Assembly (NCBI RefSeq): GCF_900108095.1
Contig: NZ_FNWL01000001.1
Span: 744,001-808,000, forward strand
Origin: Natronorubrum sediminis
GTDB taxonomy: Archaea > Halobacteriota > Halobacteria > Halobacteriales > Natrialbaceae
Direction: 5' to 3'
Length of the DNA stretch: 64,000 nt
The notes beneath the pieces were generated by a model. The model was given only the letters and a program-made list of their open reading frames with translations. It ran no database searches and was not told where the DNA came from. Below are positions 20,350-22,093 of this stretch, one piece after another. A program made the translations under genes and the position numbers. Each line of letters opens with the position of its first letter. Position 1 is the first letter of the stretch.

Positions 20350-20352
20350 CGT

Positions 20353-20359
20353 GAGGTGA
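20353..20359 (+). promoter_or_regulatory. Shine-Dalgarno site of the ABC1/UbiB gene
   Basis: GAGGTGA lies 4 bases after the Hsp20 stop codon and 6 bases before CTG 20366. The spacing is ideal for a start at that CTG, which is the main reason for choosing it. Confidence 0.6.
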
Positions 20360-20365
20360 CAGAGA

Positions 20366-22093
20366 CTGGGCTCCCTCCGCGCGTACAAGCGATTCGTTCT
20401 CGTCGCCTGGCAGTTCCTCCCGCTGCTCGTCGCCTTCGCCCGTGACCGACGGCGGTTTCTGTTCTTCGGTCGGTCGCGACGGGTCGACTCGGAGACACAC
20501 CGCCAACGCGCCGAGGTGCTCCTCGAGTCGCTGTTGACGCTTGGACCGACGTTCATCAAACTCGGGCAACTGCTCTCGACGCGCCCCGACGTGTTGCCCC
20601 CCGCGTACATCGACGTGCTCTCGGCGCTTCAGGACGAGGTGCCACCAGCCGAGTGGGCGGACGCGAAAGCCGTGTTCGAGGACGAACTCGGTCCCGTCGA
20701 CGACTACTTCAGCGAGTTCGACACCGAGGCGATCAGCGGCGCGAGTCTGGGACAGGTGTACCGAGGACGCGTCGACCCGTCGTCCGACCTTGCTGGAAGA
20801 GACGAGGCCGACGACGCTACGGCCGAAAGCGACGCCCGCGAACGCGAGGTCGCCGTCAAAATCCGCCGTCCCGAAATCGAATCGCTCGTTTCGGCCGACC
20901 TCCGGGTCATCAAGTGGTCCCTTCCCATCTTGCTCACCTTCGTCGACGAGTCGCGGGCGTTCTCGCTCGAGAACCTCGCCGACGAGTTCGCCAAGACCAT
21001 CCGCGAGGAGATGGATTACGAGCGCGAAGCCGAGATGCTTCAGGAGATCCGAGGGAACTTCGAGGGCGACGACCGATTCCTCGTCCCGGACGTCCTCGAG
21101 AGCCACTCCGGTGAGCGCGTACTCACGATGGAGTACATCGAGGGGACGAAGATCAACGACGTCGACGCGCTCGATGAGAAGGGGATCGACCGAACCCAAA
21201 TCGCCGAAAACCTCGAGCGCTCGTACCTGCAGATGATCATCGACGACGGCGTCTTTCACGCCGATCCGCACCCGGGGAACCTCGCGGTGACGGACGACGG
21301 CCGGATCGTCTTCTACGACTTCGGGATGTCCGGCCGCGTCGATTCGTTCGTCCAGGAGAAGATCGTCGACTTCTACGTCGCGGTGGCCAACCAGGATATC
21401 GACGGCATTCTCGACGCGTTGATCGAGGTCGGAACGCTCAGTCCGGACGCCGACAGAGGCGTGATGGCCGAAGTCATGGAGATTGCGATCCAGGACGCCC
21501 GCGGGCAGGACGTCGAGCAGTATCGGATCAACCAGATCGTCGGCCAGATCGAAGATTCGATCTACGTCTTCCCGTTTCGTCTCCCCAAGAACCTCGCGCT
21601 CGTGCTTCGAGTCGCGACCGTCGTCGAAGGGGTCTGCGTGACCCTCGATCCCGAATTCGACTTCATCGACGTCGCGACGGACTACCTCACCGAAGAAGGC
21701 TATCGCGAGGAAACCGCCCGGCAGTACGTCGCGGAGACAGGCCAGCAACTCCGACAGACCGGCGAATCGTTGACGCGACTCGCTCCCAAGACCGAACGGA
21801 CGCTCGATCGACTTGAGCGCGACGACCTCTTCGTTCGCATCGGGCTCGAGGACGAGGAGGATGTCTTCAATACGTTCGCCAAGCGCTTGATTTACGGCAT
21901 GTTGCTTACGATGTCGCTGTTCTCGATGGGCGTCCTCTACGCCCTGCAAGCACCCGAGGCCAGCATCGTCGCTGCGGTCTTCTCGTTCGTCGTCGCGATT
22001 CAACTCTACCGGTCGTTTCGCGAGCCGCGTTCGACGCGCGTCAAGCCCCAGTTCACCCGCCAGAACATGCGCCAGCGACGCGAAGAGGAGTGA
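20366..22093 (+). CDS. ABC1/UbiB-family atypical kinase, apparent CTG start
   Basis: A 575-residue member of the ABC1/ADCK/UbiB protein-kinase-like family, linked in bacteria and mitochondria to quinone biosynthesis. KxGQ is at 65-68 (TFIKLGQLLSTRPDVLPP), followed by the Ala/Ser loop SGASLGQVYRG, an invariant Lys in VAVKIRRP, FHADPHPGNLAV and the DFG element FYDFGMSG. Two hydrophobic segments end the protein (LLTMSLFSMGVLYAL and ASIVAAVFSFVVAIQLY). Homology-type sequence (RAYKRFVLVAWQFLPLLVAF) extends upstream of the first GTG (20516) with no ATG, GTG or TTG before an in-frame TGA at 20357. A CTG at 20366 with GAGGTGA six bases ahead is the best start. Co-transcription with hsp20 is likely. 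Confidence 0.85.
   Translation: MGSLRAYKRFVLVAWQFLPLLVAFARDRRRFLFFGRSRRVDSETHRQRAEVLLESLLTLGPTFIKLGQLLSTRPDVLPPAYIDVLSALQDEVPPAEWADAKAVFEDELGPVDDYFSEFDTEAISGASLGQVYRGRVDPSSDLAGRDEADDATAESDAREREVAVKIRRPEIESLVSADLRVIKWSLPILLTFVDESRAFSLENLADEFAKTIREEMDYEREAEMLQEIRGNFEGDDRFLVPDVLESHSGERVLTMEYIEGTKINDVDALDEKGIDRTQIAENLERSYLQMIIDDGVFHADPHPGNLAVTDDGRIVFYDFGMSGRVDSFVQEKIVDFYVAVANQDIDGILDALIEVGTLSPDADRGVMAEVMEIAIQDARGQDVEQYRINQIVGQIEDSIYVFPFRLPKNLALVLRVATVVEGVCVTLDPEFDFIDVATDYLTEEGYREETARQYVAETGQQLRQTGESLTRLAPKTERTLDRLERDDLFVRIGLEDEEDVFNTFAKRLIYGMLLTMSLFSMGVLYALQAPEASIVAAVFSFVVAIQLYRSFREPRSTRVKPQFTRQNMRQRREEE

Follow-up and report, generated by a model that had tools for sequence, protein, structure and literature searches.

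Locus Organization and Orthologues of abc1

The window is a 64,000-nucleotide stretch of Natronorubrum sediminis DNA in which hsp20 is followed on the same strand by abc1 (Table 1). The abc1 frame is closed upstream by an in-frame TGA, and between this TGA and GTG 20516 the window sequence holds no ATG, GTG, or TTG in that frame. The translation across the start region reads QR-L-GSLRAYKRFVLVAWQFLPLLVAF, where L is CTG 20366. A preliminary description of this DNA had located the GAGGTGA motif, the in-frame TGA, the CTG, and GTG 20516 as the first listed start, and all of these coordinates are correct. It had also read MTETG from GTG 20356 in another frame, which is confirmed by the window sequence.

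Table 1. Features of the hsp20–abc1 start region (positions of the window).
Feature	Position	Strand	Remarks
hsp20, small heat-shock protein, 124 aa	19975..20349	+	PF00011, E 3e-12; TAA stop 16 nt before CTG
Shine–Dalgarno GAGGTGA	20353..20359	+	6 nt before CTG; complementary to 16S 3' end GGATCACCTCC
Out-of-frame GTG within the Shine–Dalgarno motif	20356..20358	+	rejected as abc1 start
In-frame TGA closing the abc1 frame upstream	20357..20359	+	hsp20 stop in 32/67 orthologues
Putative CTG start codon of abc1	20366..20368	+	homologous column mostly GTG/ATG/TTG in other lineages
abc1 coding region from CTG	20366..22093	+	575 aa + stop; ABC1/UbiB atypical kinase
N-terminal 50 codons, lost if the start is set at GTG 20516	20366..20515	+	coding constraint, no indels
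First classical in-frame codon, GTG	20516..20518	+	rejected as abc1 start

Orthologues of abc1 were collected both from named species and from 100 related genomes; 130 non-redundant haloarchaeal loci remained after removal of near-copies. No ATG, GTG, or TTG occurs at or before codon +1 in 67 of the 130, the window included. CTG occupies the exact start column in 65 of these 67 loci, and the two exceptions (L174 and L191) are divergent.

The abc1 Product and Its N-Terminus

The abc1 product matches Pfam PF03109 at E 1.4e-69 in a profile search. It also matches the UbiB profile TIGR01982 at E 7e-97, with a score of 324.7 bits that lies under the curated cut-off of 487.55, so it is assigned to the family and not to UbiB proper. 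The ABC1 domain occurs together with a KxGQ motif, as in the ABC1/UbiB/COQ8 atypical kinases. This motif is KLGQ at residues 65–68; it falls on the same residue in all 65 orthologues, with no indel before it. Another paralogue of the ABC1 family, with about 42% identity, lies at G000:C5:101355-102815 (L002).

The N-terminus of the protein is gap-free and conserved among the 65 orthologues, and in the first 50 codons the first and second codon positions are constrained relative to the third. A helix is predicted for residues 2–28; pLDDT across residues 1–50 is 58–86 per 10-residue block, in a prediction of moderate confidence made from a 43-sequence alignment. Position 44 of the UbiB profile aligns with residue 44 of the CTG-started protein, which means that a start at the CTG yields the usual N-terminal length of the family. 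The preliminary description had proposed that ABC1 family sequence continues upstream of GTG 20516 as far as CTG 20366, and the orthologue comparison confirms it. GTG 20516 is nevertheless the first classical start in frame, and a start there or at another downstream codon would leave the 50 upstream codons untranslated. What would be lost is an N-terminus that is conserved, free of gaps, predicted to be helical, and of the length expected from the UbiB profile. GTG is present at this position in only 31 of the 67 orthologues, with GTC, CGC, GTA, ACC, and others elsewhere, and its Shine–Dalgarno (SD) pairing is weak (−2.2 kcal/mol). A downstream start is contradicted because the codon varies while the N-terminus is conserved, and we consider it highly improbable.

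Conservation of the CTG Codon

All 65 leucine rows at the start column are CTG, whereas CTG makes up only 32% of the leucine codons at other conserved leucine columns. The rows are related by descent, so a count on the tree, rather than the raw 65/65, is the fair measure. On a tree of the rest of the protein, built quickly with FastTree and uncertain in its deep branches, the CTG column has 0 synonymous changes and 14 other leucine columns have 1–36. Elsewhere among the 130 orthologues, the start column is GTG in 9, ATG in 5, and TTG in 1, and a further 18 rows have a GTG available one codon after it. The homologous codon is ATG in Halalkalicoccus and GTG in Halobacterium, Salinarchaeum, and one Halovivax; one MAG (L090/L143) carries CCG. 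Because more distant families have ATG, GTG, or TTG in exactly this place, the column is identified as a start site. On this comparison, changes at the column run between apparent start codons and not between leucine codons. The codon is conserved as a codon and not as an amino acid, and it is exchanged for other NTG starts, as is characteristic of a CUG start.

The sister genome, whose protein is 98% identical, shares the out-of-frame GTG, the closed frame upstream, and the CTG with the window. The arrangement is repeated in more than 60 further orthologues and occurs in records titled Natronorubrum, Natrinema, Natrialba, Haloterrigena, Halopiger, Natronococcus, Halobiforma, Halostagnicola, and Saliphagus. 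Halorubellus, in another branch of the tree, carries it as well. The preliminary description had offered two readings of the region, either a CTG start or a small frameshift at the 5' end, the latter possibly a sequencing error. A one-base difference would indeed bring MTETG into frame with SLRAYK. The same state is, however, found in the sister genome and in dozens of independent assemblies, and the abc1 reading frame is otherwise intact and under constraint. The occurrence of this state in several genera excludes a sequencing error, and the chance that the locus is an error or a pseudogene is negligible. The CTG reading is instead supported by the invariant codon in 65 of 67 loci and by the NTG starts at the same codon elsewhere. 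Comparison with relatives for an in-frame ATG or GTG combined with a base difference at 20366–20380, suggested earlier as the deciding check, also favoured the CTG.

In 27 further loci, an in-frame GTG lies inside the SD motif, 9 nt upstream of the start column, and 24 of these 27 also have CTG at the column. Other leucine columns in this set are CTG 37% of the time. The start is ambiguous in the 24 CTG orthologues because the in-frame GTG is also present, and going by the codon pattern the CTG may be the start in them too. In Halorussus, Haladaptatus, Haloarchaeobius, and Halobium-type loci (e.g., L097, L098, L159, and L129), the CTG is equally invariant, and the in-frame GTG precedes it by 9 nt. 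Since the GTG is part of the SD motif in such loci, a start placed there may be three codons too long.

Shine–Dalgarno Pairing

The 3' end of the 16S rRNA of the window's genome was read in L192/L193 (sequence in Table 1), and its duplex with the SD motif of the window has an energy of −11.4 kcal/mol. Across the 67 orthologues, the mean pairing before the CTG is −13.0 kcal/mol, compared with −4.5 to −5.8 kcal/mol in shifted control windows, and GGTG within the motif is invariant. The spacing of 6 nt between GAGGTGA and the CTG is normal for an SD motif and fits the intra-operon spacing of 5.55 ± 1.15 nt in H. volcanii (PMC3986360). Orthologues from dozens of species repeat the arrangement GAGGTGA-N6-CTG, so it is not a chance occurrence. 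The pattern GRGGTGA-N6-CTG has 14 matches in the window's genome, against 6 for a reversed-pattern control. Among these 14 places, only abc1 opens a long, family-extending frame without a classical start nearby; the 13 further places inspected, at N6 spacing only, gave no other convincing gene with an SD-N6-CTG start in this genome. As a separate observation on 16S rRNA, contigs C1–C4 of G000 contain, near their starts, four matches with identical scores; these share two positions close to a contig end (253–1726 and 3628–5101). The recurrence of identical-score matches at these coordinates suggests that the G000 assembly is cut at rRNA operons.

The GTG at 20356 lies within the GAGGTGA motif of the window. 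Ribosomes could start there, translate MTE and the following codons, and then shift by +1 into the abc1 frame. This GTG is invariant across the 65 CTG-only loci, in 32 of them the hsp20 stop overlaps it as GTGA, which is the commonest geometry of coupled pairs, and MTET or MTEA would be a plausible N-terminus. The GTG is, however, fully accounted for as part of the SD sequence GGTGA, and its distance from the CTG varies by clade between 9 and 10 nt. Slippage also gives no reason why the CTG never became CTC or CTT. The frame of GTG 20356 reaches a stop (TAG, TGA, or TAA) at codon 3 in L033, L147, L144/L178, and L135/L141/L086, that is, in at least four independent lineages, by which the slippage route is contradicted; we regard it as improbable. 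In these same loci, a frame of two codons starts at the SD GTG, and its stop codon ends one base ahead of the CTG. This small frame is possibly a product of chance, or possibly a minimal ORF that feeds reinitiation.

Linkage to hsp20 and Proposed Mode of Translation

hsp20 lies upstream of abc1 in 128 of the 130 orthologous loci. Among the 67 loci that lack a classical start, the hsp20 stop is a TGA at −9 (a 6-nt gap) in 32 and lies at −19 (a 16-nt gap), mostly as TAA, in 28. In total, 60 of the 67 loci have the upstream stop at one of these two places, close enough to the start (about 20 nt or less) for a coupled gene pair. In the first 32, hsp20 ends in the frame of abc1, and readthrough of its TGA could yield an Hsp20–ABC1 fusion. 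The two frames differ, however, in the window (TAA at −19) and in about half of the loci, and readthrough leaves the invariance of the CTG unaccounted for; the probability of a fusion is very small.

Neighbouring genes in H. volcanii are coupled by termination–reinitiation, often with an SD motif (PMC6728339, PMC10666635). The efficiency of this process drops substantially at a distance of 13–14 nt and is near zero at 22–23 nt (PMC6728339, PMC10666635). At 6–16 nt, reinitiation is lowered yet present (PMC10666635). By this precedent, SD-helped reinitiation at the CUG is the most likely route for abc1, and de novo initiation at the internal SD motif is possible. Judged from the sequence comparisons, abc1 is very probably translated from CTG 20366 by SD-assisted initiation or reinitiation behind hsp20. 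Ribosomes that complete hsp20, or subunits recruited by the internal GAGGTGA, would initiate at the CUG 6 bases downstream, which would be read by initiator Met-tRNA. The product would have 575 residues and begin with M-G-S-L-R-A-Y-K. With Gly, Ala, or Val as the usual residue 2, the initiator Met is probably cleaved off.

The weak codon probably holds the amount of kinase below that of Hsp20 and is probably kept by selection. Its purpose could be a low output relative to Hsp20 or control through initiation stringency. A wider proposal can be put forward only tentatively, and we think it rather doubtful. It holds that the CUG is a kept regulatory device, by which translation of abc1 would depend on that of hsp20 and on start-site stringency (as set, for example, by stress or the level of aIF1). 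CTG would then also be the older state in much of the haloarchaea, and the in-frame GTG of other families would be part of the SD motif only.

Significance and Relation to Known Systems

Most gene callers ignore CUG, and archaeal initiation is described with AUG, GUG, and UUG, which the archaeal sources consulted name as the sole functional starts. Gene callers limited to ATG, GTG, and TTG would truncate the abc1 kinase or move its start in many genomes. A CUG start that is unchanged across an archaeal family would let start-codon discrimination in archaea be tested cleanly on a natural example. In the literature searched, no description of a CTG start for a haloarchaeal ABC1 kinase was found. 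By its conservation pattern, the abc1 CTG is a new and unusually well-conserved candidate among the already known non-AUG starts.

Non-AUG starts (AUU, AUA, and CUG) are used by the bacterial genes infC and pcnB. They resemble abc1 in that a rare start codon is kept long in evolution at one gene. Unlike abc1, both are bacterial genes; infC is under autoregulation by IF3, whereas abc1 is not known to take part in a regulatory loop. Prokaryotes use CUG starts very rarely, and in one survey only 2 of 61,358 ancestral AUG starts had become CUG (PMC5622118).

The termination–reinitiation pairs of H. volcanii and abc1 are alike in having an internal SD motif near the upstream stop and a short intergenic distance (PMC6728339, PMC10666635). 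Most of these pairs overlap by 1 or 4 nt, whereas hsp20 and abc1 are 6 or 16 nt apart and the proposed start is CUG.

HVO_1510, a paralogue of isopropylmalate/citramalate synthase, has a conserved N-terminus without ATG, GTG, or TTG in several haloarchaeal species; the published proposal is a CTG start in frame or slippage from an ATG in another frame (PMC8305020). Like abc1, it is a haloarchaeal gene with a conserved N-terminus and no classical start. It is a different gene, for which CTG and slippage are both left open. In abc1, unlike HVO_1510, the column is invariant family-wide, an SD motif stands at standard spacing, other lineages have ATG, GTG, or TTG there, and stops contradict slippage.
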